14,339 bases of DNA from a methanogenic archaeon (lineage in GTDB: Archaea; Thermoplasmatota; Thermoplasmata; Methanomassiliicoccales; Methanomethylophilaceae), in the NCBI GenBank assembly GCA_902787415.1, contig CADAGG010000008.1, positions 1 to 14,339 on the forward strand, given 5' to 3'. Both the position numbers and the translations under genes were made by a program. Below, in pieces: positions 48 to 13,981 of this stretch. Below the pieces are notes generated by a model that saw only the letters and a program-made list of their open reading frames with translations, ran no database searches and was not told the origin of the DNA. Position 1 is the first letter of the stretch, and each line of letters opens with the position of its first letter.

Positions 48-1934
48 TCAGTTGTCGTCGTCGACGATCTTGTAGTCTGCGTCGACCACGTTGTCGCCGT
101 CGGCCTTCTTGCCGGCGGACTGCTGTGCTCCCGCCTGCTGCTGGGCCTGCTGGTATGCCTGCTGGGCGGCCTGCTGCTGCTCAGGGGTGGCATTCTCGTA
201 GATCTTCTTTCCGATGGGCTCCATCGCTTTCATCAGGGCGTCGGTCTTGGCCTTGATGTCATCGACGCTGTCGGAGTTCTGGACCGCTTCGAGGTCCTTG
301 ATCGCGGACTCGACGACGGTGCGCTCCTCCTGGGTGACCTTGTCGCCGAGCTCCTCGAGGGATTTCTTGGTGGTGTAGACGAGGGTCTCCGCCTGGTTGC
401 GGGCGTTGATGAGCTCCTCCTTCTTCTTGTCGGCCTCGGCGAACTGCTCTGCGTTCTTGATGGCCGCGTCGATCTCCTCCTTGGTGAGCTTGTTGGAGGA
501 TGCGATGGTGATCTTCTGCTCCTTTCCGGTACCGAGGTCCTTGGCGGACACGTTGATGATACCGTTGGCGTCGATATCGAAAGTGACCTCGATCTGGGGG
601 ATTCCGCGCCTTGCGGGGGGTATACCGTCGAGGGTGAACCTTCCGAGACTGGTGTTGTCAGCCGCCATCTTCCTCTCCCCCTGCACGACGTTGATCTCGA
701 CAGAGGGCTGGTTGTCCACTGCGGTGGAGAACACCTGGGACTTCTTGGTGGGGATGGTGGTGTTCCTCTCGATCAGCCTGGTGGCCACTCCTCCGAGGGT
801 CTCGATGCTGAGGGACAGAGGAGTAACATCCAGCAGGAGGACGTCCTTGACGTCTCCGGAGAGGACTGCTCCCTGGATTGCTGCTCCCTTGGAGACGCAC
901 TCCATGGGGTCGACACCGCGCTGGATCTTGGGTCCGACGATGTTCTCGACGAAGTTCTGGATGATGGGCATCCTGGTAGGTCCTCCGACCATGATGACCT
1001 TGTCGACCTTGTCGGCGGTGAGTCCGGCATCCCTCATGGCCTGCTCGATGGGTCCGCGGCACCTCTCCACGATGGGGGTGACGAGCTCCTCGAGTTTGGC
1101 GCGGGTGAGGGTCTGCACCAGGTGCTTGGGGCCGGAGGCGTCCGCGGTGATGAAGGGCAGGTTGACCTCGGTCTGCATGGTGGTGGACAGCTCGATCTTC
1201 GCCTTCTCGGCGGCCTCCCTAACACGGACGTATGCCGCGTGGTCCTTGGAGAGATCGATGCCGGTCTCGTTCTGGAACTGCTTGATGATGAAGCTGGTGA
1301 GTGCTTCATCCATATCGGATCCTCCGAGAGCGGTGTCTCCGGAGGTGGACATGACCTCGAACACTCCGTCGTCGAAGTCCATGATGGTGACATCGAGGGT
1401 TCCTCCTCCGAGGTCGAAGACCAGGATCTTCTGGGACTGTCCTGCTTTGTCGAGTCCGTAGGCCAGTGCGGCGGCGGTGGGCTCGTTGATGATACGGACG
1501 ACGTCGAGTCCTGCGATGGCTCCGGCGTCCTTGGTCGCCTGCCTCTGGTTGTCGTTGAAGTAGGCGGGGACGGTGATGACCGCTTTCTCGACTTTCTCGC
1601 CGATGAATGCCTCTGCGTCCTTCTTGATCTTTCCGAGGATGAAGGCGGAGATCTGCTGGGGAGTGTACTCTTTGCCGAGTGCGGTCACTTTCTCGCTGGA
1701 TCCCATCTTCCTCTTGACGTTCTTGATGGTTCCCTCGGGGTTGGTGACTGCCTGCCTCCTGGCGGGTTCGCCCACGAGCAGCTGGCCGTCTTTGGTGAAT
1801 GCGACGTAAGACGGGAAGGATTTCCCGCCGACGCTGGTTCCTTCAGCGCTGGGGATGATGGTAGGTATACCTCCCTCCATGACGGAGGCGGCAGAGTTGC
1901 TGGTTCCGAGATCGATTCCGATGATTCTAGACAT
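48..1934 (-). CDS. dnaK: Hsp70 chaperone DnaK
   Basis: This is a 628-residue cytosolic ATP-dependent chaperone that binds exposed hydrophobic segments of unfolded proteins, working with DnaJ and GrpE. The nucleotide-binding domain begins with the phosphate motif GIDLGTSNS (residues 6-14) and includes [48 protein letters not shown] and [11 protein letters not shown]. The linker reads [19 protein letters not shown] and leads into the substrate-binding domain. The tail is rich in Gln/Ala and ends in [13 protein letters not shown], as in bacterial DnaK. The segment before [10 protein letters not shown] is short, so the roughly 25-residue insertion of proteobacterial DnaK is absent, as in Gram-positive and archaeal forms. 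A Shine-Dalgarno sequence GAGGTGA overlaps the grpE stop, and the ATG follows that stop after 11 bases, so translation is probably coupled. Archaeal DnaK is generally regarded as acquired from bacteria. Confidence 0.98.
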
Positions 1935-1945
1935 ATTCTTTCACC

Positions 1946-2524
1946 TCAATTTTCTGTGTTGTTTTCAGCAGTTTTCTCATCCTGCTCAGGAGCCGCTTCC
2001 TGCTCCTTCTTCTTCGTGACCACGACCTTGGCGAACCTCAGCACGCGGCCGTTCATCATGTATCCTTTCTGATACACCTGGGCGATCTTGTCGTCCTCCT
2101 CTCCCTCGACCACCATCAGCGCCTCGTGCATGTTGGGGTCGAAGCCCTTGTCGGTGGGAACCTCGCTGACACCCTGTGCTTCCAGGATCTTCACCAGGTT
2201 GCCCCTGACGGCCTTGACTCCGACGGCGAGGGGCGACTCGGCGTCGGGAGCGGATTCGAGGGCCCTCCCCAGGTCGTCCACCACGTTCAGCAGCTCGGTG
2301 ACGAGCCCGCTGTTGGCGAACTTCCTGAAGTCGGCCATCTCCTTCTCGGTCCTCTTGCGGTAATTGTCGAACTCGGCGAAGGTGCGCTGCCAGCGGTCCA
2401 GGTTCTCGGCGGCTTCCGCCTTCGCCTGCTCCAGCTGTGCTTCCAGGGTGGGTTCTTCGGGGGTCTCTTCGACCTCTTTCTCCTCGGAGGGCGCTTCTGT
2501 TTTTTCTTTAGACTTGCCAGTCAT
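1946..2524 (-). CDS. grpE: GrpE, nucleotide exchange factor of DnaK
   Basis: This 192-residue protein dimerises and releases ADP from DnaK, resetting the chaperone cycle. The first 30 residues are acidic and low in complexity. A long coiled coil follows, with LDRWQRTFAEFDNYRKRTEKE, typical of GrpE. The C-terminal beta domain contains GFDPNMHEALM and YQKGYMMNGRVLRFAKVVV, close to the family signature (HEA...GY...RVLRPA.V.V). The extreme C-terminus is a charged tail. Length fits the family (about 170-210 residues). The start has only a weak ribosome site (GTGGT). It lies 71 bases after the thermosome stop, with a strong hairpin in the gap, and I see no convincing TATA box there, so it may be reached by readthrough from the thermosome promoter. 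Confidence 0.97.
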   Translation of the reverse strand: MTGKSKEKTEAPSEEKEVEETPEEPTLEAQLEQAKAEAAENLDRWQRTFAEFDNYRKRTEKEMADFRKFANSGLVTELLNVVDDLGRALESAPDAESPLAVGVKAVRGNLVKILEAQGVSEVPTDKGFDPNMHEALMVVEGEEDDKIAQVYQKGYMMNGRVLRFAKVVVTKKKEQEAAPEQDEKTAENNTEN

Positions 2525-2534
2525 ACATTACCAC

Positions 2535-2552
2535 TTTTGAGACATTTTGAGA
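2535..2552 (-). repeat. Two 8-bp direct repeats upstream of grpE
   Basis: TTTTGAGA (plus strand) occurs at 2535-2542 and again at 2545-2552, a period of exactly 10 bp (one helical turn), 11-28 bases before the grpE ATG. It could be a binding site or chance in a short A/T-rich leader. No known regulator is recognised. Confidence 0.35.
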
Positions 2553-2560
2553 GGTTTTTC

Positions 2561-2578
2561 AGGGGGCCGAAGCCCCCT
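2561..2578 (-). terminator. UUCG-capped hairpin between thermosome and grpE
   Basis: In the transcript direction the sequence is AGGGGGC-UUCG-GCCCCCU: a perfect 7-bp stem closed by a cUUCGg tetraloop, an exceptionally stable RNA loop. It begins 18 bases after the thermosome stop. The bases that follow are A-rich (GAAAAACC), not U-rich, so it may act as an mRNA 3'-end protector or processing/attenuation structure and not as a simple terminator. Confidence 0.6.
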
Positions 2579-2595
2579 TTGATAGTTTAGAAGCT

Positions 2596-4206
2596 TCAGT
2601 CCGTTCCGGGTGCTGCGGGTGCAGGTGCGGATTTGGAGGCGATGACATCGTCGATCCTGAGGATCATGACCGCAGCATCGGTTGCAGAGTTGATTGCCTG
2701 TTTTCCGATCCTGTAGGGCTCGATGACATCGTTCTTCATCATGTCCTCGACCTTGCCGGTGAAGGGGTTGATTCCGGCGTAGGTCTTGCCTGCCTTGTGC
2801 TGCCTCCTGAGCTCGATGACCATGTTGATGGGGTCGAGTCCGGCGTTCTCGGCGAGGGTGGTGGGGATGATCTCCATGGCGGAGGCGAAGGCCTCGATGG
2901 CGATCTGCTCCCTTCCGCCGACGGATGCGGCGTAGTCCCTGATCTTCATGGCGAGCTCCATTGCGGTGGAACCTCCTCCGGTGCAGATGAGGCCGTCCTC
3001 GATGGAGACCTTGACGACGGACCAGGCGTCCACCAGGGACCTCTCGACCTCGTCGGTGACGTGGTTGGTTCCTCCCCTTACGAGGATGGAGACGGTCTTG
3101 GGGTCCTTGCATCCGGTGACGAAGGTCATCTGCTCGTCGCCGATGAACCTGAGCTCGACGCAGTCGGCTGCTCCGAGGTCGTCGGCGCTGAGCTCGCTGA
3201 TCTTGCTGACGATGTTGGCGTTGCAGGATTTGGCGAGCCTCTCCATGTCGCTCTTCTTCACGCGGCGGCAGGCGTAGATGCCTTCCCTGGCGAAGAAGTG
3301 CTGTGCGAGGTCGTCGATTCCCTTCTGGCAGAAGACGACGTTGGCTCCGGCCTTCTTGCATGCGTCGACCATGGCCTTGAGGGTGTTCTCCTCTTCCTTG
3401 ATGAACTGGGAGAGCATCTCGGGGTCGGTGATCTGGATCTTTGCGTCCATCTCGGGCTTCTTGACCTCGAAGGCTCCGTCGATGAGTGCGATCTTGGCGC
3501 CCTTGACTACCTTGGGCATGGTGGGGGAGACGGGCTCCTTGTCGATGATGAGACCTTTGATGAGCTCGGACTCTTCCATGTTGGCTCCGGCCTTCTTGAC
3601 AGTGCAGATGTTCTTCAGGTTGGCGAAGTACTTGCCCTCGTCGTCCTTCTCGACGATGGTCTTGACGGCGTCGACGATCATCTTGGAGAAGAAGTCCTTG
3701 GCGGAGTTGATCTGCTTGCTGTTCATGGATACCTGGGCAATCTTCAGGAGGAGTTCCTCGTCCTTGAGGGAGACCTTCTTGGAGACCTGCTTGAGGATCT
3801 CCTGTGCCTTGTCGTTGGCGAGCCTGTATCCGGCGGTGATGATGGTGGGGTGGACGTTGGAGTCGATCAGGTCGAGGGCCTTCTTGAGGAGCTCTCCTGC
3901 GATGATGACGGAGGTGGTGGTACCGTCTCCGACCTCGTCGTCCTGTGCCTTGGCGACTTCGACGAGCATCTTTGCTGCGGGGTGCTGTACATCCATCTCT
4001 TTCAGGATGGTGACACCGTCGTTGGTGATGACGACGTCTCCGAGGGAGTCGACGAGCATCTTGTCCATTCCCCTGGGGCCGAGGCTGCTCCTTACGGCGT
4101 CAGCGATGGTCCTGGCGGCAGTGATGTTGTTGAACTGCGCGTCTTTTCCTTTCTCTCTCTTGCTTCCTTCCCTGAGGATAAGTACAGGTGCGTTACCCAT
4201 TCCCAT
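2596..4206 (-). CDS. thsA: Thermosome subunit (group II chaperonin)
   Basis: This 536-residue cytosolic chaperonin assembles into double rings and folds proteins in an ATP-driven cage with a built-in lid. Family motifs are GPRGMDKMLVDSLGDVVITNDG (about residues 43-64), the nucleotide motif GDGTTTS (93-99), ICTGGGSTAMELA in the returning intermediate/equatorial part, and SATDAAVMILRIDDVI near the end. The C-terminus (SAPAPAAPGTD) is short and lacks the Gly-Gly-Met-rich tail of many thermosomes. The first ATG is chosen because AGGAG lies 9 bases upstream (4216-4220); a second ATG two codons later is an alternative. It is the first gene of the chaperone cluster and has its own TATA box and a flanking inverted repeat. 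Only one thermosome gene is visible; others may exist elsewhere, so alpha versus beta is not resolved. Confidence 0.97.
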   Translation of the reverse strand: MGMGNAPVLILREGSKREKGKDAQFNNITAARTIADAVRSSLGPRGMDKMLVDSLGDVVITNDGVTILKEMDVQHPAAKMLVEVAKAQDDEVGDGTTTSVIIAGELLKKALDLIDSNVHPTIITAGYRLANDKAQEILKQVSKKVSLKDEELLLKIAQVSMNSKQINSAKDFFSKMIVDAVKTIVEKDDEGKYFANLKNICTVKKAGANMEESELIKGLIIDKEPVSPTMPKVVKGAKIALIDGAFEVKKPEMDAKIQITDPEMLSQFIKEEENTLKAMVDACKKAGANVVFCQKGIDDLAQHFFAREGIYACRRVKKSDMERLAKSCNANIVSKISELSADDLGAADCVELRFIGDEQMTFVTGCKDPKTVSILVRGGTNHVTDEVERSLVDAWSVVKVSIEDGLICTGGGSTAMELAMKIRDYAASVGGREQIAIEAFASAMEIIPTTLAENAGLDPINMVIELRRQHKAGKTYAGINPFTGKVEDMMKNDVIEPYRIGKQAINSATDAAVMILRIDDVIASKSAPAPAAPGTD

Positions 4207-4225
4207 TGTGTTATTCTCCTATGTT

Positions 4226-4240
4226 ACCGCCTTTCGCGGT
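4226..4240 (-). promoter_or_regulatory. Hairpin at the predicted 5' end of the thermosome mRNA
   Basis: The RNA would read ACCGC-GAAAG-GCGGU: a 5-bp stem with a 5-base loop. The start predicted from the TATA box (about 4243) puts it at the very 5' end of a leader of about 38 bases, upstream of the AGGAG site. It could affect mRNA stability. It does not itself cover the ribosome site. Confidence 0.4.
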
Positions 4241-4265
4241 TGATGCGTAGTTATTATTTGTCCTT

Positions 4266-4274
4266 CTATATAAA
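4266..4274 (-). promoter_or_regulatory. TATA box of the thermosome gene
   Basis: The minus strand reads TTTATATAG, close to the archaeal consensus, in an otherwise non-repetitive context. Transcription should start about 25-27 bases downstream (near 4243), giving a short leader that contains the AGGAG site. The inverted repeat begins one base upstream of the box, where TFB would contact the BRE. Confidence 0.75.
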
Positions 4275-4275
4275 C

Positions 4276-4307
4276 GTTTGTAAGGTTCACAACTGCAGGT
4301 TACAAAC
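4276..4307. repeat. Inverted repeat abutting the thermosome TATA box (candidate operator)
   Basis: Arms GTTTGTAA (4276-4283) and TTACAAAC (4300-4307) are perfect 8-bp reverse complements separated by 16 bases. The arm centres are 24 bp apart, a little over two helical turns, which would suit a dimeric regulator contacting one DNA face. The element overlaps the BRE position, so a bound protein could block TFB. I do not recognise the site as that of a known archaeal heat-shock regulator. Confidence 0.55.
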
Positions 4308-4357
4308 ACTATGGATGGATTATTTTCTGCATCTGGCCTTTCTGAAAAACCACCAAT

Positions 4358-4424
4358 ATTGTAAAATATCTACATATTCCTTAAATGGATACTTTTTGAA
4401 TTGTGTTATCCTAATTGTAAAATA
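4358..4424. repeat. Two 11-bp direct repeats upstream of the thermosome promoter
   Basis: ATTGTAAAATA occurs at 4358-4368 and 4414-4424, exact copies with a 56-bp period. Each contains TTGTAA, the core of the inverted-repeat arm next to the TATA box, so four TTGTAA half-sites lie within about 150 bp. The region is A/T-rich, so chance cannot be excluded. Confidence 0.4.
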
Positions 4425-4497
4425 GGCCGACAAGAAACGGACACGGAGGAAAGGATCCGGCCCTTGTCATATTATAGAAAGAATAAGAAATGATGAT

Positions 4498-4523
4498 ACG
4501 GGGCGGGCCCCTGCCCGTCCCGT
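4498..4523 (-). terminator. Hairpin after glnN
   Basis: In the transcript direction an 11-bp GC-rich stem with one A-C mismatch (ACGGGACGGGC / GCCCGCCCCGU) surrounds a 4-base loop, starting 9 bases after the stop codon. The sequence after it, AUCAUCAUUUCUUAUUC, is moderately U-rich. It is the likely 3' end of the glnN transcript. Confidence 0.65.
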
Positions 4524-4532
4524 TTTAAGGTT

Positions 4533-6716
4533 TCAGTGGATGAAGAGCAGCTCCCTGTACTTGGGCAGGGGCCACATCTGGTCGTCGACCATGAGCTCCA
4601 GGGAGTCCACGTGGGTGCGGATGTTCTCCAGCATGGGGACCACCTTGTCGTGGTACTGGACGGCCGCTGCGCGTCCCTCTCCGTTGGCCTCGATCTTCTC
4701 GACCAGCACATCGAGCCTGTCGATCTCGGACTCGGCGGCGGAGATGTCCTCGGAGATGCACTTGATCAGGTCGAGCTGCGATGCGGCATACTTCTTGAAC
4801 TCCTTCTCGCCGTAGATCTCCTTGAGGTTCTTGACGTTCTCCAGCAGGATGTTCTGGTACCTGATGGCCACGGGGATGACGTGGTTGGTGACCAGGTCGC
4901 CCAGGGTCTTGGCCTCGATGGAGATCCTCTTGCAGTAGATCTCCAGGAAGACCTCCTTCCTGGACTCCAGCTCCACCTTGGTCAGGACCTTCTCGGTCTC
5001 GAAGATCTTGACGGTCTGTTTGGTAGTGTAGGCGTCCATGCAGACAGGCACGGAGCTCTCGCAGTCCAGTCCGCGCTTCTTGGCCTCGATCTTCCACTCC
5101 TCGGAGTATCCGTTTCCGTCGAAGCAGATGGCCTGGCAGGACCTGTAGGTCTCGCGGGTCTCGTCGAGGATGGCCCTGAGGGGGTCCTCTCCGGCCTTGA
5201 CCCTCTTCTTCACGACGGCGATGAACTGCTCCAGCTGGTAGGCCAGCAGGGTGTTCAGGATGGTGATGGGCCCGGAGCAGTTGGCGGACGAGCCGACGGC
5301 CCTGAACTCGAACCTGTTGCCGGTGAAGGCGAAGGGGGAGGTCCTGTTCCTGTCGGTGTTGTCCACGATGAGCTCGGGGATCTGCGGGATTCCGAGGCTG
5401 TAACCCTTCTTGCCGGCGATCTTGACCATGTCCTTGGACTTCAGGAGCTCCTCGAAGGCCGCGTGGACCTGGGTTCCCAGGAAGGACGAGATGATTGCGG
5501 GGGGTGCCTCGTTGGCTCCCAGCCTGTGGGAGTTGGAGGCGGTCATGACGGACGCTTTCAGCAGGGCGTTGTTGTCGTACACCGCCTTCAGGGTGTTGGC
5601 CATGAAGCACAGGAACCTGAGGTTCTCGCTGTCGGTCTTGCCGGGGGAGAACAGTCCGATGCCGCTCTCGGTGCCGATGGACCAGTTGCAGTGCTTTCCG
5701 GATCCGTTGACGCCCGCGTAGGGCTTCTCGTGGAGCAGCACGGCGAAGCTGTGCTTGTCCGCCACGGACTTCATCACGGACATCAGGAGCAGGTTGTGGT
5801 CGATGGCGAGGTTGGAGGTCTCGTAGACGGGTGCGATCTCGTACTGTCCGGGGGCGACCTCGTTGTGCCTGGTCTTGACCGGGATGCCGAGCTTGTAGCA
5901 CTCGAACTCGAGGTCCCTCATGAACTCCATGACCCTGGCGGGGATGGATCCGAAGTAGTGGTCCTCCAGCTGCTGGTTCTTGGACGACACGTGGCCGATG
6001 AGGGTACGGTCGGTGAGCACCAGGTCGGGGCGCTGGGAGTAGAGGTCCTTGTCGACCAGGAAGTACTCCTGCTCCCATCCGAGATAGGAGTGGGTGACCT
6101 CGCCGGGCATGCCCATCAGGGTCAGCAGCTCGCTGGCGGCCCTGGTCACGGCGGCGTCGGATTTCAGCAGAGGGGTCTTGTAGTCAAGGGCCTCTCCTGC
6201 GTAGGAGACGAAGACCGTGGGGATGCAGAGGGTGTCCCCGATGATGAACGCGGGGGAGGAGGGGTCCCATGCGGTGTAGCCCCTCGCCTCGAAGGTGTTC
6301 CTCAGTCCCCCGCTGGGGAAGGAGGACGCGTCAGGCTCCTGCTGGCACAGCAGCTTTCCGCTGAACTTCTCGATGGACTCGTCGCGGGCGCGGGGGTCGG
6401 CGAAGGAGTCGTGCTTCTCCGCGGTTCCGCCGGTGAGGGGCTGGAACCAGTGGGTGTAGTGGGTGACACCGTGATCGATGGCCCATCTCTTCATACCGGC
6501 AGCCACATACTCGGATACGGTGGTATCGAGGGTGGCTCCCCTCTCGATGGTCTCGTAGATGGTCCTGCGGGTGTCGGCGTCGAGGTACTTCCTCATGGCC
6601 GCCCTGTTGAAGACGTTGCATCCGTAGTAGTCGGAAGTCTCCCTGGAAGGGGCGATCGCTTCGATCGGTTCTTTCGCGGTGGCTCTCTGAACGGCGTCGA
6701 ACCTAAAATTTACCAT
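4533..6716 (-). CDS. glnN: Type III glutamine synthetase
   Basis: This 727-residue enzyme makes glutamine from glutamate, ammonia and ATP, the main route of ammonia assimilation. The length matches GSIII (about 700-730), far longer than the archaeal GlnA type I (about 450). Visible motifs are GWEQEYFLVD (213-222, metal-binding glutamates), HNEVAPGQYEIAPVYE (284-299), NGSGKHCNWS (337-346, equivalent to NGSGMHxHxS of other GS types), RLGANEAPPAIIS (398-410, typical of GSIII) and FTGNRFEFRAVGSS (464-477). The C-terminal 200 residues are helical and specific to this type. There is no good Shine-Dalgarno site. The TATA box centre is about 24 bases upstream of the ATG, so the mRNA is probably leaderless. 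It is flanked by intergenic gaps on both sides, so is likely monocistronic. No adjacent GlnK/PII or amt gene is present in the window. A bacterial origin by transfer is plausible but unproven here. Confidence 0.97.
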   Translation of the reverse strand: MVNFRFDAVQRATAKEPIEAIAPSRETSDYYGCNVFNRAAMRKYLDADTRRTIYETIERGATLDTTVSEYVAAGMKRWAIDHGVTHYTHWFQPLTGGTAEKHDSFADPRARDESIEKFSGKLLCQQEPDASSFPSGGLRNTFEARGYTAWDPSSPAFIIGDTLCIPTVFVSYAGEALDYKTPLLKSDAAVTRAASELLTLMGMPGEVTHSYLGWEQEYFLVDKDLYSQRPDLVLTDRTLIGHVSSKNQQLEDHYFGSIPARVMEFMRDLEFECYKLGIPVKTRHNEVAPGQYEIAPVYETSNLAIDHNLLLMSVMKSVADKHSFAVLLHEKPYAGVNGSGKHCNWSIGTESGIGLFSPGKTDSENLRFLCFMANTLKAVYDNNALLKASVMTASNSHRLGANEAPPAIISSFLGTQVHAAFEELLKSKDMVKIAGKKGYSLGIPQIPELIVDNTDRNRTSPFAFTGNRFEFRAVGSSANCSGPITILNTLLAYQLEQFIAVVKKRVKAGEDPLRAILDETRETYRSCQAICFDGNGYSEEWKIEAKKRGLDCESSVPVCMDAYTTKQTVKIFETEKVLTKVELESRKEVFLEIYCKRISIEAKTLGDLVTNHVIPVAIRYQNILLENVKNLKEIYGEKEFKKYAASQLDLIKCISEDISAAESEIDRLDVLVEKIEANGEGRAAAVQYHDKVVPMLENIRTHVDSLELMVDDQMWPLPKYRELLFIH

Positions 6717-7053: not shown

Positions 7054-7971
7054 GTGGCGTTCTTGTTCAAAAACGGTGAACAGCTCTACAACGAGGGCCT
7101 CGACATGATCGGCCGGAGGGACTTCAGCGGAGCTAGGAAGAAATTCGTCGACGCGGTCCAGAAAGGATACGGCGCCGACGGCATGGCGGATGTCTACATC
7201 ACCATCCTCGACGTGGGGGCCAACCGCTCCAATATCGGAAGCTACAAGGCGCTCAGGAACGCCCTGGGCAACCTGAAGGTCGGCTCTTTCAAGTTCGGAC
7301 TGACCGACATCGATGTGAACGACCTCATCGCAGAGGTCGAGCTCGACATCAAGGAGATCGAGGCCAACAACCTCCCCGATTCCCTCTACAAGGAGAAGAG
7401 CGCGGCGCTCATCGCCTGCGCAGGGGAGTACATGGGCCGTATCGGCGAGAAGAACCTCAAACTCGACGAGATATTCAAGGGCACCACCGCCGCCACCGGC
7501 AGCAGGGAGGCCCTCATCCTCCAGGCCGAGGGATACTACGTGCTGGGAGAGGGCAGCGTGTCGGAGGACCCCAAGCTGGCCTCCGAGTACATGCAGATGT
7601 CCTACAACTTCCGCAAACAGCTGGGCGACAGCGGCGACCACGAGCTCAGGCTCGCGCAGAACTACGCCAGGTCCGCCAGGTGCTGGATCTGCGGCAGGCC
7701 CGCCAACGGCGAGGGCATCCACTTCCTGCCCATGAGGAGCTCCATCGCCCCCGTGTTCGCCAAGACCTCCGACGGGGAGATCGTCAAACCCTTCTCCGAT
7801 GACATACGCTCGATCTACGTCTGCGTCCCCTGCTACACCGCCATCTCGAACAGATCCGACGACATCTCCAGGGAATACTACGAGCGCGCCATGGCCGAGG
7901 TCCACGCCATCGAGGCCCGCCTCGAGGCGGAAATCGCCTCCGTGAGGTTCAGCGCATCCATGCACAGGTGA
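7054..7971 (+). CDS. Unrecognised TPR-like protein with a CxxC/CxxC zinc module, operon gene 1
   Basis: This 305-residue protein has no signal peptide or membrane segment and is predicted cytosolic. Residues 7-37 (NGEQLYNEGLDMIGRRDFSG and following) look like a TPR-type helical hairpin, and much of the rest is helical. A zinc-binding module is formed by CWIC (C210, C213) and CVPC (C257, C260), split by 43 residues, longer than a simple zinc ribbon. A helical tail ends the protein. The GTG start is supported by AAGGGA about 5 bases upstream. It begins the operon; its stop is four bases before the next gene, and AGGTGAT spanning the stop serves as that gene's ribosome site. I do not recognise a named family. 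Context suggests a partner of the SPFH protein; the function is unknown. Confidence 0.85.
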   Translation: MAFLFKNGEQLYNEGLDMIGRRDFSGARKKFVDAVQKGYGADGMADVYITILDVGANRSNIGSYKALRNALGNLKVGSFKFGLTDIDVNDLIAEVELDIKEIEANNLPDSLYKEKSAALIACAGEYMGRIGEKNLKLDEIFKGTTAATGSREALILQAEGYYVLGEGSVSEDPKLASEYMQMSYNFRKQLGDSGDHELRLAQNYARSARCWICGRPANGEGIHFLPMRSSIAPVFAKTSDGEIVKPFSDDIRSIYVCVPCYTAISNRSDDISREYYERAMAEVHAIEARLEAEIASVRFSASMHR

Positions 7972-7975
7972 TACG

Positions 7976-9514
7976 ATGGACGACATGATCGCACTCAGAT
8001 GCAAATACTGCGGGGCCCCGCTCGACGCCTCCGCCGTGAAGGAGGACAGCCCTTACATCACCTGCTCCAGCTGCGGTACCACCCAGCAGAAGATGGATGC
8101 CCGCGCCTACCTCGACCAGCTCATGGGACAGGTCCGCTCGTGGGTCAGCCAGGCCATGCCCGGAGGCATGTCCGCCGCCATGACCCAGAACGTCGACAGC
8201 GTGGCCAGGCACAACATCTTCATGACCAACTTCAAGCCGAAGGTCGACATGGAGTTCGCAGCCTACAAGTTCGGCATGAACAACCTGCTCTCCCAGCCCC
8301 TCATGGTGATGCCCTTCACCACCAGGAAGATCAACGTGAGCCACAGCTCCAACCAGGCCTTCGAGTTCGGCGCCAAGATGAACGAGATCTCCTCCCTGGC
8401 GGTCAGCGACGAGACCTCGAAGATCATGACCGAGGTCACCAAGGTCACCGACGCCTATGCGCTCCTGATCAACAACTGCGCCCTCATCAGCGAGGACAAG
8501 CCCGGCAGGTTCGCGCTCATGGCCAACAACTTCAGCCTGGCCGCCGCCGACTTCGGCCACATGGCCGACTACAGCCCGGCCCGCGACCGTTTCGAGGGCC
8601 TCGCGCAGCTCTGCAACGGCTGCGAGATGCTGATGAACGGCGACATCGCCTCCTCCCGCCCCCAGTTCGAATCCGGAAGGGACAAGCTGAAGGCATCCTC
8701 CGCCGCCGTGATGGGGAACATCAAGGTGGCCATCATGGGCCAGGCGGTCAACCAGGAGGCCAAGATGGCCGAGGTCCTGACCGAACTGACCGATTACGTT
8801 AACAGCATGGGCGGGACCAAGGAGATCTTCGACGCCGTCAGGCGCGTCTTCACCTTCCAGTATCCCGCCACCGGCAACTGGGCGTTCCTGCTCAACAACC
8901 ACGACCGCCTCGCCGAGGTTTTCGGCTACATGGCGGACTGCGTGAAGGCCAAGAGCGGTGCCGGCACCCTGCCCATCACCGCCGGCTCCGGGGACGTTCT
9001 CGTACCCTTCTGGCACATCGACCTGAAGTACAGTTTCCAGACCGGCTCGCTGTGGAAGAAGCACAGCGTGGAGGTCAGCGAGACCCTCCTGGTGCCGGCC
9101 GACTTCGTCATCGACGGGGACTGCCTCAGCTCCCCCCGGAACGCGGTCACCGACGTCTTCAGCGTCAAAGGTTCCAACGGACTCTTCGCCGGCCTCACCG
9201 GCAGCGAGACCAGCATCAGCGACTCCCAGGGACTGGGGAAGCTGGCGGACTCCGCGGCCCCCAACTCCGCAGGAGGGAGGAGGATCGTGGTCCCCCTCAG
9301 CACGAAGCGCGAGGCCGAACGCATCGCCGAGACCTACATCCAATGGATGTCCAAGAGCCTCGACAAACTCAAGCTCAGCAACCCCGACGTGAAGGAGCTC
9401 ATCTACATCCCCTTCGAGAGCGAGGGCAACAAACTTACGGTAAAACCGGAATTCGGTGTACTGACCCCCGCAAGGGTCAAGCGCACCGACCTCGGACAAC
9501 TGATCGTACTATGA
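7976..9514 (+). CDS. Zinc-ribbon protein of unknown function, operon gene 2
   Basis: This 512-residue protein starts with a compact TFIIB-like zinc ribbon (C9-x2-C12, C30-x2-C33, reading CKYCGAPLDASAVKEDSPYITCSSC across that span in part). A long helical region follows (about 45-330). A later, more beta-rich part contains VPFWHIDLKYSFQTGSLW, similar in style to the aromatic-rich segments after zinc ribbons in YdjG-like proteins. No transmembrane helix is evident. The ATG at 7976 follows AGGTGAT, which overlaps the previous stop; a second ATG three codons on is an alternative. It is 9 bases from the next gene. In Bacillus subtilis a zinc-ribbon protein, YdjG, sits beside the SPFH protein YdjI, so a parallel role at a membrane complex is a reasonable inference, but sequence equivalence is not established. 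Confidence 0.85.
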   Translation: MDDMIALRCKYCGAPLDASAVKEDSPYITCSSCGTTQQKMDARAYLDQLMGQVRSWVSQAMPGGMSAAMTQNVDSVARHNIFMTNFKPKVDMEFAAYKFGMNNLLSQPLMVMPFTTRKINVSHSSNQAFEFGAKMNEISSLAVSDETSKIMTEVTKVTDAYALLINNCALISEDKPGRFALMANNFSLAAADFGHMADYSPARDRFEGLAQLCNGCEMLMNGDIASSRPQFESGRDKLKASSAAVMGNIKVAIMGQAVNQEAKMAEVLTELTDYVNSMGGTKEIFDAVRRVFTFQYPATGNWAFLLNNHDRLAEVFGYMADCVKAKSGAGTLPITAGSGDVLVPFWHIDLKYSFQTGSLWKKHSVEVSETLLVPADFVIDGDCLSSPRNAVTDVFSVKGSNGLFAGLTGSETSISDSQGLGKLADSAAPNSAGGRRIVVPLSTKREAERIAETYIQWMSKSLDKLKLSNPDVKELIYIPFESEGNKLTVKPEFGVLTPARVKRTDLGQLIVL

Positions 9515-9523
9515 GGTATTGAA

Positions 9524-9901
9524 ATGGAAAACACAGGAAACGCATACAGGACCCGCCAGGCACTGGTGGGCGCATTCATCCTGATCGCAGCGGCCCTGGC
9601 CATCGTGGTCTACGGGGCCACCAACCTCGGCGCACTGGCGGCCGTGGGGATCTTCATCCTCGTGATGGGGGTCGGCATCGCGGCCATGTCGCTCATGTTC
9701 AGCGGCACCCCCGACAAGTTCGGACCCTCCGAGAGGGTCTACCGCCTGGTGGCCGGAGTGATCCTGGCGATCATCGGAGCGGTCCTGCTCCTCCACGTGT
9801 ACGGGGCCGCATGGTACATACTCGCAGCCGTCCTCCTCATCGGCATCGCCATACTGGGAGCCCTGACGGCAGTCTCCAACAGCAAGAAGGTAAAATACTG
9901 A
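9524..9901 (+). CDS. Small four-helix integral membrane protein, operon gene 3
   Basis: This 125-residue protein has four predicted membrane segments, roughly residues 14-33, 36-59, 74-93 and 97-117, connected by short loops. The N-terminus is short and polar, and the C-terminus (SNSKKVKY) is basic and so probably cytosolic. The loop between helices 2 and 3 (SGTPDKFGPSERVYR) is the only sizeable soluble part. A good ribosome site GAGGT (9513-9517) overlaps the previous stop. It may anchor the other operon products at the membrane. No family is recognised. Confidence 0.85.
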   Translation: MENTGNAYRTRQALVGAFILIAAALAIVVYGATNLGALAAVGIFILVMGVGIAAMSLMFSGTPDKFGPSERVYRLVAGVILAIIGAVLLLHVYGAAWYILAAVLLIGIAILGALTAVSNSKKVKY

Positions 9902-9910
9902 GGTGTGAAA

Positions 9911-10450
9911 ATGGGAAACGCACTCGAGAACAGCGCCGAGGCATCCATCGGCAAAAACAGGACCCTCATCGAGAGGATCCAGATGTACATCCCCATCTAC
10001 AGGGGCTACAAGCAGAAGAACCTCCGCAGGGACGAGGACCGTGCCATCAGGGACGTGGTGGCCAAGGTCCTGACCGCGGTCAAGAACGACCTCGCCAACG
10101 CCGCCAGGGCCACCCTCGGCGACGTAGAAGCCATGAGGGACATGGAGAGGGTCAGATCCAAGGTCGACAGGTACTGCACCGACGTCAAGAAGGCCGTCGC
10201 GGGATACAGCGGCGTCCACGCCTCCGTGAAGATCCTGGAGTCCGAGCTCGACAAGGTCATCGAGTGGGATGCCAACCTCATCGACGACGTGGAGCTTCTC
10301 AAGCAGCAGTCCGCCAAGATGCTGCAGGACATCGACGACAACCTGCCCATCAAATCCGACATGAGGATGATCGAGCAGACCGTCGACGAGATGATCAACA
10401 CCTTCCGCGAGAGGGACAACGTCATGAAGAACCTGGTAGAGGAGGAATGA
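9911..10450 (+). CDS. Helical coiled-coil protein, PspA/ESCRT-III-like candidate, operon gene 4
   Basis: This 179-residue protein appears entirely alpha-helical with long charged heptad-like stretches and no membrane segment. A short conserved-looking motif, YIPIYRGYKQKNLRRDEDR (residues 26-44), precedes the helices. GAGGTG (9900-9905) is a strong ribosome site, best spaced for ATG 9911; a GTG at 9905 would add two residues but lies on that site. It occupies the place that PspA (YdjF) holds beside SPFH YdjI in Bacillus, and its size and helical make-up would suit a membrane-binding helical polymer. I cannot align it with PspA or Snf7 by eye, so the comparison rests on context and composition. 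Its stop is two bases before the preferred start of the SPFH gene, with GGAGG just upstream. Confidence 0.8.
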   Translation: MGNALENSAEASIGKNRTLIERIQMYIPIYRGYKQKNLRRDEDRAIRDVVAKVLTAVKNDLANAARATLGDVEAMRDMERVRSKVDRYCTDVKKAVAGYSGVHASVKILESELDKVIEWDANLIDDVELLKQQSAKMLQDIDDNLPIKSDMRMIEQTVDEMINTFRERDNVMKNLVEEE

Positions 10451-10452
10451 AG

Positions 10453-11580
10453 ATGGCAATATTCGGATCCAACGGAGAGAAGAAGGAGAACGTGGTGTTC
10501 TGGAAGGACCAGGGTCCCGACGACATCATCTACGTCTCCAAGGACGACGACCTCAGGACCCTGACCTCGGTCACCGTCCCCGAGCACGCGGTCGCGATGT
10601 TCCTCAAGGACGGACAGCTCCAGGGAGTCCTGGAGCCCGGCAGGCACGTGATCACCTCCAACAACATCCCCTGGCTGACCGCCATCTACAACAAGGCGCT
10701 CGGATACAGGGACACCCCCTTCAAGGTATGGATCGTCTTCATCTCGCTGAAGATGTTCAACGGCAAATGGGGCATCAGGGGAATGATCAAGGCAGCCCCC
10801 GGCTACGAGGTCCCCATCACCCTGATGTCCAACGGAGAGTTCCAGTTCAGGATCTCCGACACCTCCGTGTTCTACACCCAGGTCCTCGGAGGAATGAAGT
10901 CCTACTCCACCGGAGACGTCAACGCCTTCATGAAGAGCTTCATCAACGAGCAGATCACCCAGCAGCTGTCCCAGCAGTACTACATGGACGTCATGCAGAA
11001 CCTGGAGAAGGCATCCTCCACCACCAAGATCCTCATCGACCCCTACTTCCAGCAGAGGGGTATCGAGCTGCTCTCACTGAAGATCAACGAGGTCTCCACC
11101 ACCGAGGAGGAGAAGAAGAAGGTCTTCGAGTATCTCCAGTTCTCCAGCGCCAACGGAGAGGCCTACAAGAGGTACGAGGTCATGGACAGGATGGCGGACG
11201 CCATCGGCAACTCCGAGGGAGGTGCGGCCATGGGTACCGGTATGCTCCTGTTCCCCCAGATGTACCAGCAGCTCCAGCAGCAGCCCGTCGCAGGCGTGCA
11301 GGCCCAGCAGGCGCAGGCCGCCCCCCAGGCACAGAAGGTCATGTGTCCCTTCTGCGGAGGCCTCAACGACTACCCCTACAAGTTCTGCGGCAACTGCGGA
11401 AAGCCCTCGCCCCAGATGCAGGCCCAGCAGACGCCCCAGCCCCAGCCCGTTCCCCAGCCGGCCGGACAGCCCGCAGGCGGCGCCCGCGCGTTCATGCGCT
11501 GCCCCTACTGCGGAGAGGACCTCAGCAGCCTGAAGAAGACCCCCAAGTTCTGCCCCTACTGCGCGGAAGAGCTTTCCTGA
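10453..11580 (+). CDS. SPFH-domain protein of the YdjI (virion core protein-like) type with two zinc ribbons, operon gene 5
   Basis: This 375-residue protein is predicted to form a membrane-associated scaffold. The SPFH (stomatin/prohibitin/flotillin/HflK) part matches the YdjI type: VPEHAVAMFLKDGQ (about 42-55), LEPGRHVITSNNIP (60-73), NGKWGIRG (103-110), then the helical second half with QQRGIELLSLKINEVS. Unlike most SPFH proteins there is no N-terminal membrane anchor. After residue 260 comes a Gln/Ala-rich linker, a zinc ribbon (C298, C301, C312, C315), a Pro/Gln-rich linker, and a second ribbon (C350, C353, C367, C370) at the C-terminus. ATG 10453 is preferred, 7 bases after GGAGG; ATG 10447, which overlaps the previous stop, is an in-frame alternative two codons earlier. 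In Bacillus YdjI works with PspA in membrane stress; the same theme is likely here. Confidence 0.92.
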   Translation: MAIFGSNGEKKENVVFWKDQGPDDIIYVSKDDDLRTLTSVTVPEHAVAMFLKDGQLQGVLEPGRHVITSNNIPWLTAIYNKALGYRDTPFKVWIVFISLKMFNGKWGIRGMIKAAPGYEVPITLMSNGEFQFRISDTSVFYTQVLGGMKSYSTGDVNAFMKSFINEQITQQLSQQYYMDVMQNLEKASSTTKILIDPYFQQRGIELLSLKINEVSTTEEEKKKVFEYLQFSSANGEAYKRYEVMDRMADAIGNSEGGAAMGTGMLLFPQMYQQLQQQPVAGVQAQQAQAAPQAQKVMCPFCGGLNDYPYKFCGNCGKPSPQMQAQQTPQPQPVPQPAGQPAGGARAFMRCPYCGEDLSSLKKTPKFCPYCAEELS

Positions 11581-11589
11581 AACCCTCCC

Positions 11590-11617
11590 GCCGGCCCTCC
11601 GGGGCCGGCATTATTTT
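11590..11617 (+). terminator. Hairpin terminator after the SPFH operon
   Basis: GCCGGCCC-TCCG-GGGCCGGC is a perfect 8-bp GC stem with a 4-base loop (11590-11609), followed by ATTATTTT. It begins 9 bases after the SPFH stop and ends 15 bases before the next ATG, marking the end of the five-gene operon. Confidence 0.7.
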
Positions 11618-13096: not shown

Positions 13097-13981
13097 ATGC
13101 AGGATGTTCACGAGAACCTCTATGCGGAAATAATGTCCATGGCCTCCGTTTTCGAGAGGATGGACTGCCACAACTCCGCCAACTACATGAGAAAAAGACT
13201 CGACAACGGGTTCCTCTCCGGTGCGCTGAGGAGCCTCTATTCCGACGCCAGGACCGTCAGGTTCGCAGGCGACATCAGCGGCCTCGACCAGCGCCTCATC
13301 GGCGGCATGAGGAAATCCGCCGTATCGGCCCTCAACCTCCTCTCCGAGAGGATCGCCGCCCAGCCCGGCAAGAAGGCCAAGTACCGCCAGATCGGCATGA
13401 TGCCCTACGACATCGAGCGCGCATGGTTCATGAACCGCTTCAACGCCGACGTCGAGAGGATCAGGGAGAAGATGCCCAGGCCCATCGACGACCCCGAGAA
13501 GTACCTCAGGCTTGTCTTCAAACTTTACACCTCCTTCATGCAGAACGTCCACCGCCCCTACGCGGAACTCTACAGGACCTTCATGAAGAACCTGCTCGGC
13601 AGCAACTGCAGGGACGTCGGAACGCTCATCGAGGAGAACTTCTCCATGGACTCCGTCTTCCTGGTCAACGGAAAGGCGGTCTCCGACATCCGCTGGCTCC
13701 GCAGGATGTACAGGGAGAAGAGGTACACCCTCAAGGGCGACACCGTCTCCTTCGACGGCGTCGACGGCATGCCCAGGCTCACCTACACCCTGTGGGAGCT
13801 CATGGTCATCATACTGTTCATGCAGAGGAAAGTCCTGCTGCTCTGTTCGATGTTCTGTCTCATCGACATCGAGAAGATCAGGCAGGTGGCCGAGGCCTGG
13901 ACCGAACTGCCCAGGAAGGACTCCAACTACGCGGCCAACCTTAACAAGGTGAACTCCGTCAGGCTCAGGGCCACAATCTGA
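13097..13981 (+). CDS. Hypothetical protein, 294 residues
   Basis: I do not recognise this protein. It is mostly alpha-helical, basic, and rich in Arg and Met, without a signal peptide. A hydrophobic stretch near residues 233-258 (LTYTLWELMVIILFMQRKVL and on) could be a buried helix pair or a membrane segment. No CxxC zinc motif, Walker A or nuclease motif is visible. Codon use is like that of its neighbours, so it appears native. It has its own TATA box and lies between the apt terminator and galM; its stop overlaps the likely galM promoter. An ATG at 13089 is out of frame and would not encode this product. Confidence 0.8.
   Translation: MQDVHENLYAEIMSMASVFERMDCHNSANYMRKRLDNGFLSGALRSLYSDARTVRFAGDISGLDQRLIGGMRKSAVSALNLLSERIAAQPGKKAKYRQIGMMPYDIERAWFMNRFNADVERIREKMPRPIDDPEKYLRLVFKLYTSFMQNVHRPYAELYRTFMKNLLGSNCRDVGTLIEENFSMDSVFLVNGKAVSDIRWLRRMYREKRYTLKGDTVSFDGVDGMPRLTYTLWELMVIILFMQRKVLLLCSMFCLIDIEKIRQVAEAWTELPRKDSNYAANLNKVNSVRLRATI

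Follow-up and report, generated by a model that had tools for sequence, protein, structure and literature searches.

Proteins that join an SPFH domain to zinc ribbons have been tied to membrane stress, in the papers cited here, mainly through loci that also carry PspA, and the question arises what such a protein does where PspA is nearly absent. We addressed it in a window of 14,339 nucleotides (the whole stretch of DNA analyzed, positions 1 to 14,339 of contig CADAGG010000008.1, assembly GCA_902787415.1) from a methanogenic archaeon of the family Methanomethylophilaceae, order Methanomassiliicoccales, phylum Thermoplasmatota, whose genome is 1.23 Mb long and 82.6% complete. An operon of five genes, here called g1 to g5, retains the SPFH part with new partners, in an order that is nearly free of PspA and includes at least one member with a reportedly bare membrane, and so allows the role of the SPFH part by itself to be studied. 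Our preferred answer, to which we give even weight for and against, is that the operon encodes a PspA-independent, co-expressed SPFH scaffold of the archaeal membrane, in which g3 would be the anchor, g4 the bridge and g1 and g2 the adaptors. It builds on the gene content, the domains of the products, the conserved gene order, the near-absence of PspA in the genomes of the order that we searched and the separate lineage of g4 and g5, all of them observed. The operon and its features, with lengths in amino acids (aa), are as follows.

7054-7971, + strand: g1, 305 aa, GTG start (AlphaFold pLDDT 89.6)
Residues 1-206 of g1, + strand: solenoid, TPR-like and helical
7681..7833, + strand: split CxxC...CxxC module of g1 (residues 210-260), CWIC...GIHF...CVPC, with a long C-terminal helix after it
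7976-9514, + strand: g2, 512 aa
8000..8074, + strand: zinc ribbon of g2 (residues 9-33), CxxC pairs C9/C12 and C30/C33
9524-9901, + strand: g3, 125 aa
9911-10450, + strand: g4, 179 aa, ATG start; an alternative GTG at 9905 falls in the ribosome-site sequence
10453-11580, + strand: g5, 375 aa; an alternative ATG at 10447 would overlap the end of g4
10549..11130, + strand: SPFH/Band_7_1 domain of g5, PF13421 at 2.8e-23, 83 bits (cut-off 24); Band_7 at 4.9e-7
11344..11562, + strand: double zinc ribbon of g5, four CxxC pairs; DZR at 1e-5, 26 bits, just under the cut-off of 27.3
11590-11609, + strand: hairpin, -21.2 kcal/mol, z -3.4, 1 of 200 shuffles equally good, with a T-rich stretch after it

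All five genes lie on the + strand within 7054-11580, with intergenic gaps of 4, 9, 9 and 2 bases, and a purine-rich, ribosome-site-like sequence was recognized by eye upstream of every start. The hairpin 3' of g5 is followed by ATTATTTT and, together with its T-rich stretch, is likely to be a terminator. Open reading frames (ORFs) and hairpin calculation thus agree with an earlier note on this DNA, which had described a close-packed, same-strand operon with ribosome sites and a closing hairpin. Across 20 loci, which were chosen for carrying the genes, the median gaps are 5, 14.5, 3.5 and 4 bases; one single value of 1217 (L056) is due to a short second g5-like ORF (7930-8250, 106 aa, a zinc-ribbon end) located after g5. 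Ratios of nonsynonymous to synonymous substitution rates (dN/dS) were 0.05-0.17 against locus L052 and 0.35-0.45 against L053. Both the gaps and these ratios speak for conservation beyond chance. Inspection by eye of 26 sequences upstream of g1 (that of L054 taken inside the gene) revealed no common promoter motif.

The last gene, g5, is the most readily classified. As the earlier note had read it, it is a YdjI-type SPFH protein, with a clear match to PF13421 and zinc ribbons at its end, and a low-complexity linker rich in Gly, Gln and Pro lies between the two. Seven of its eight ribbon cysteines (the exception is C298) are invariant in all 24 rows of an alignment of the window's protein with 23 of the 36 matches fetched, and we found no hydrophobic membrane-spanning stretch in it. 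It is the sole PF13421 match in its own, 82.6% complete genome, and its closest relative among the genomes of the order, in G019, is 97% identical. The same family was also found in Bacillus subtilis, L. lactis, S. acidocaldarius and M. acetivorans among 14 control genomes, and the match in B. subtilis is presumably YdjI itself. By sequence, no convincing solved homologue of g5 was found at E <= 1.

Two further products, g1 and g2, carry CxxC pairs, so that the three zinc-module proteins of the earlier note could all be located. Neither has a hydrophobic membrane-spanning stretch in its sequence, and neither of the window's proteins reaches the cut-off of any Pfam or NCBIfam family. In g1 the pairs are C210/C213 and C257/C260; these four cysteines and H223 do not vary in any of the 25 aligned rows, and the motif and the order of strands and helix suggest a zinc-binding, treble-clef-like module. 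A TPR_2 match at E <= 1 was obtained for 20 of the 25 aligned g1 members (best 2.1e-5), the window's own g1 giving no TPR match at that threshold in the Pfam profile search. The AlphaFold model of g2 (pLDDT 86.8, pTM 0.80) consists of an N-terminal zinc ribbon, a helical solenoid (residues 39-326) and a C-terminal beta domain (332-512). The four ribbon cysteines C9, C12, C30 and C33 are invariant across all 34 aligned rows, and Zn_ribbon_3 was matched at E <= 1 by 29 of the 34 members, under the cut-off in the case of the window's g2. No convincing solved homologue of g2 was found by sequence at E <= 10, and profile comparison gave no relation between the solenoids of g1 and g2.

The earlier note had also described a four-helix membrane protein, g3. 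Its hydrophobic, multi-transmembrane character stands, with two hydrophobic stretches (10-63 and 70-121), either of which could accommodate two helices; judged from these lengths, it probably has four transmembrane helices. It contains no cysteine. The next product, g4, appears helical from the look of its sequence (the label had been 'coiled coil'), has no hydrophobic membrane-spanning stretch and carries the motif IPxYRGYxxKxLRRxxDRxxR. It matches the NCBIfam family LIMLP_15305 (NF047596) at 1.3e-9 with 38.2 bits, where the cut-off is 210, and a match at E <= 0.1 was found in all 29 aligned g4 members (best 2.3e-20). Every g4-family match in 243 Thermoplasmatota genomes falls under the LIMLP_15305 cut-off, and none of the 14 control genomes has that family. 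On these profile matches we take the window's g4 to be a distant relative of LIMLP_15305 and not a member by the curated cut-off. Other weak matches (End3 at 0.0017, under its cut-off; alpha-xenorhabdolysin A and EzrA in four of the 29 members each) were set aside as general helical likeness.

We then consider how widely the set is kept. Our sample of the order comprised 101 genomes, 56 of them from the window's own family (f1). Matches to g1 and g2 occurred in the same 42 genomes, every one in f1; g4 was matched in 76, g5 in 86 and g3 in 51 genomes, many of the g3 and g5 matches being weak or partial and the weaker g3 matches doubtful. The order g1-g5 was found in all 20 f1 loci of a first set (with g5 of L053 cut by the contig end), a biased set in that it was picked from genomes with matches. 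A less biased scan of species genomes for g2 yielded 92 stretches that fit the pattern, of which 62 encode a g2 relative; because its query consisted of two short peptide patterns, more remote relatives would escape it. The labels of these 62 loci are mostly Methanomassiliicoccales, Methanomethylophilaceae and Thermoplasmata groups, a few are just archaeon or Euryarchaeota and one is 'Methanomassiliicoccaceae bacterium'; a few genomes supply two or three loci, and there is overlap with the first set. In all 62, g1 lies directly upstream of g2. A contig end truncates ten of them, and 47 of the 52 uncut loci carry all five genes in order, a count that includes L190 (g2 and g5 in several frames), L175 (g5 in two) and L185, from another class. 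Independent scattering of the five genes, a test that the earlier note had set beforehand, was encountered mainly outside the family, where the pairs g1-g2 and g4-g5 are found separately. The broken frames of L190 (7001-11060, Candidatus Methanomethylophilus sp. 1R26) may be errors or decay.

Beyond the family, a g2 profile search of the 243 genomes of the phylum gave matches in 34: 19 from f1, two (G231 and G274) from a family here called f23, four from another, f7, and nine weak ones, eight of which are restricted to the zinc-ribbon end. The order g1-g2-g3-g4-g5 recurs in L120 (on the same contig as L185, Candidatus Thermoplasmatota, another class), where g2 is 37% identical to that of the window, and fragments of the set are found in G274, a family-mate of L120, split between two contigs (L199 and L200).

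The pair g4-g5 reaches further than the complete set, with g4 family matches in 76 of the 243 Thermoplasmatota genomes. Among 20 g4 loci from outside the order, a g5-type SPFH gene adjoins g4 in 18 (in L116 it is one gene away); the neighbour proteins of 406 and 378 aa in L123 and L126 are SPFH-like by eye, Pfam at E <= 0.01 detecting just zinc ribbons in one of the two and no family in the other. A small multi-transmembrane ORF stands directly before g4 in six of the 20 (L116-L119, L122 and L120), the six for which membrane spans were computed. Within the order but outside f1, g5 lies beside g4 in 36 of the 37 genomes with g4, as judged by comparing coordinates by eye; G018 has the pair on different contigs, and in G035 the g5 match is partial and some 800 bases away. 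We refer to the g4-g5 operons of other Thermoplasmatota as type I and read eight of them in the order outside f1 (L082-L089). Like the window's operon they have g4 followed by the SPFH-zinc-ribbon gene g5; unlike it, they have other genes downstream and fall in a separate clade. In L084-L088 three of them encode zinc-ribbon proteins, named ZnrA (about 247 aa), ZnrB (about 335 aa) and ZnrC (about 196 aa), whose ribbons align with that of g2; L082 has ZnrC, the other two not being delimited, L083 has none in the listed ORFs and L089 stops after g5. LemA and TPM genes follow in L082, L087 and L088, and NfeD with a stomatin-type Band_7 gene in L085 and L086 (LemA of L088 and NfeD of L085 named by eye, the other calls by Pfam). 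A likeness of the C-terminal domain of g2 to ZnrC or ZnrA/B, prompted by a common PFW/PIW motif, received just 2-10% probability in a domain profile comparison and was dropped. Two proteins of g4-g5 loci outside the order may also be mentioned: a 421 aa protein between g4 and g5 in L116 (4312-5577, G182), with no Pfam family over cut-off and a weak likeness to ZnrA/ZnrB, and a g4 protein with its own N-terminal zinc-ribbon-like stretch in L122 (5833-6543, f7).

Trees of g4 and g5 were built from 13 f1 loci, three from f23, eight from order-mates and the other phylum loci that match over enough length. In both trees f1 groups with f23 (L116, L120, L200), apart from type I, which includes the order-mates of f1; support for this split is 100/100 for g5 and 94/82 for g4, the latter not a starred branch. 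In the g4 tree the divergent L123 and L126 join the f1/f23 side via a very long branch, L116 is long in both trees, and the tree program warned that long-branch joins may be false. Subject to that warning, common descent of the f1 genes with the type I pair of their order-mates was rejected by the approximately unbiased test (p 3e-45 for g5, 1e-4 for g4). The grouping of f1 with f23 may reflect lateral transfer or an ancient paralogy with loss, which these trees do not tell apart.

The earlier note had called the operon an archaeal cousin of ydjFGHI. In B. subtilis, YdjI is reported to have no membrane anchor of its own and to depend on YdjG/YdjH, and deletion of ydjI to lower membrane fluidity (PMC8581546); PspA in turn depends on YdjI, whose membrane association requires YdjG/H (PMC8581546, PMC9239133, PMC11237479). 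The likeness holds for the YdjI-type part: both operons encode an SPFH protein with a C-terminal zinc ribbon and no anchor, together with membrane and zinc-ribbon partners, and the window's is conserved. In contrast to pspA-ydjGHI, however, the window operon lacks PspA, TPM (YdjH) and a YdjG-like protein, has the additional genes g1, g2 and g4, and keeps its membrane spans in a separate small protein, g3. The YdjG-type combination of membrane spans and zinc ribbons is not found in any one product, the zinc modules of g1 and g2 lacking transmembrane stretches and g3 lacking cysteines. Scans of eight window proteins gave no match to TPM or PspA, and PspA was also without a match in the window's 82.6% complete genome. 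Across the 101 genomes of the order, the set to which these counts apply (f23 is outside it), PspA (PF04012) was over cut-off in two and at E <= 0.001 in four, with a positive control in 9 of 14 known genomes, whereas Snf7 was found in none, a weak test since its control was positive only in Sulfolobus and under cut-off. The proposal that the helical protein replaces PspA found no support: the window's g4 has no PspA_IM30 or Snf7 match at E <= 1 (one of the 29 g4 members gave a chance-level CdvB3 match, 0.092) and belongs to a different family, spread through Thermoplasmatota. Nor do the data establish an expanded ydjFGHI: the window type forms a lineage of its own with a distant class and g1 and g2 reach no family cut-off. 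A tie to ydj-like parts is the TPM-domain gene, as in YdjH, downstream of g4-g5 in three of the eight type I loci read.

Other known systems come close in part. PspA-free band-7/flotillin operons with a YqiJ/YuaF-type membrane protein are reported from bacteria and archaea and, like the window's, combine a band-7 protein and a membrane partner with no adjoining pspA; they are of flotillin type, and the accessible part of that report mentions neither zinc ribbons nor g1, g2 or g4 (PMC11237479). Meth_adaptin ESCRT loci are reported to have an archaeal SPFH/coiled-coil/zinc-ribbon protein in a membrane-related locus (PMC10936438), as here; unlike them, the window operon has no Vps4 or ESCRT-III match. 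We found no description of the operon among literature titles and the beginnings of abstracts, SPFH with Methanomassiliicoccales included, subscription papers and preprints being outside that search.

A scaffold at the membrane face, with its own anchor, bridge and two adaptors, appears to us the most economical account of these observations. Having no membrane span, g5 would assemble on the cytoplasmic face in the manner of YdjI and other SPFH proteins; g3 could serve it as a receptor in the membrane, with g4 as a helical bridge from g3 to g5, and clients would be recruited and organized by the zinc ribbons of g5 together with g1 and g2, the zinc/solenoid proteins. We infer that these proteins form a complex and that the assembly protects or organizes the membrane. 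A presumed close relative, ISO4-H5, is described as having only a thin bilayer membrane without S-layer or wall (PMC5011839), a setting that fits a membrane scaffold. Such an assembly would place three poorly known families, g1, g2 and g4, in a consistent context and in a complex that can be tested.

Several observations weigh against this account. No g1/g2 matches were found in 14 of the 56 f1 genomes, some of them incomplete; since three of these (G048, G054 and G056) have a completeness of 98-99%, the set is dispensable for some members. Three loci (L174, L181 and L194) have g1-g2-g4-g5 with hardly any gap and without g3, which therefore is not the sole anchor everywhere. L179 and L182 carry g1-g2 alone, and the four f7 loci read (L195-L198) have g1-g2 with no g4-g5 nearby, the f7 copies of g4-g5 sitting elsewhere (L201, L202). 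Variants also occur in f1: in L075 and L076, g1-g2 is followed by a divergent SPFH gene and then a protein of 225-228 aa with a hydrophobic start, and in L078 and L079 a divergent SPFH gene is accompanied by a g3-like gene and a protein of 272-289 aa, zinc-ribbon-like, on the other strand. Because of these variants, the f7 loci and the separate occurrence of the pairs, we conclude that the set is modular, with g1-g2 and g4-g5 as its tightest pairs; what recurs across arrangements is an SPFH-zinc-ribbon protein accompanied by small membrane and zinc-ribbon proteins. Upstream of the divergent set in L075 (1-3379) are three more ORFs starting with zinc-ribbon-like stretches, and in L081 (927-1463, G084, f1) a lone g4 stands between thermosome and APRT genes, as though it were all that is left of the operon.

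The surroundings of the operon bear on one alternative. By eye, the translations of the - strand genes at 48-4206 resemble DnaK, GrpE and thermosome, and that of a further upstream gene on this strand resembles a type III glutamine synthetase; the whole block (48-6716) is partly kept in the family. Downstream, Pfam identified inositol monophosphatase-family and phosphoribosyltransferase genes, the latter called APRT by eye. These neighbours are less constant than the operon itself: a scan of 92 loci (30 earlier ones and the 62 g2 loci; many short, some overlapping, a few outside the family) found glutamine synthetase as a neighbour in 51 loci, APRT in 34, thermosome in 29, GrpE in 18 and DnaK in 17. 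The operon could then be a platform for quality control and folding of membrane proteins, with TPR/zinc co-chaperone-like adaptors on the SPFH scaffold and the adjacent chaperones as partners, a reading that we consider possible but rather unlikely. The TPR-like g1 suits it, and band-7 proteins have been given a chaperone-like role in complex assembly (PMC11237479). The chaperone genes, however, are on the other strand, behind glutamine synthetase, whose own frequency as a neighbour suggests that their proximity may be inherited gene order; L185, from another class, shows no match to any of the seven window neighbours, so that the operon order holds where the surroundings differ too. Moreover, Pfam detected no protease in the operon.

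A ydjFGHI-type envelope-stress module with its PspA or ESCRT-III effector supplied from elsewhere is, in our estimation, improbable: it shares the SPFH family with B. subtilis, and TPM genes occur close to g4-g5 in three loci, but the near-absence of PspA from the order and its absence from the window's genome, the lack of Snf7 hits, though weakly controlled, and the lack of TPM in the window argue against it. A metal or redox sensor, whose CxxC modules would respond to zinc or oxidants with g1 and g2 as relay, finds some basis in the invariant cysteines of three products; zinc ribbons, however, are usually structural, and no regulator or transporter family exceeds its cut-off in the operon. 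A Leptospira peroxide study (PMC7567364) lists LIMLP_15305 next to a non-coding RNA, which also speaks for a sensor; this reading nonetheless strikes us as very unlikely. We rate no higher a machine of a third kind for membrane remodelling or repair, in which g1 and g2 would be archaeal Bro1-like adaptors joined to an SPFH cage and a small membrane receptor, with g4, as a new helical family, in place of PspA/ESCRT-III; if true, such a machine would have been exchanged between distant Thermoplasmatota and would serve in an order where PspA is almost lacking and Snf7 went undetected. Bro1 domains (HD-PTP, BROX, ALIX) do fill the ten top rows for g2 and the eight top rows for g1. The sequences differ, at 5-10% identity, at or under the level trusted for helical repeats, and what was striking at first for g2 lost its force when g1, with an unrelated profile, gave Bro1 too, which likely reflects general solenoid likeness. 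A defence system against mobile elements we regard as scarcely credible: this is a multi-gene operon of uncharacterized kind with a membrane part, but no tool result points there, no PADLOC family was matched at E <= 0.02 by any of the five products, PHROG matches are confined to the linker of g5 and its zinc-ribbon end, and in much of the family the operon remains beside the same genes.

Across the window, scans with PHROGs, Rfam and for tRNAs returned nothing of use. A 294 aa ORF at 13097-13978, with no Pfam or PHROG match, recurs among the 92 loci only in L052.

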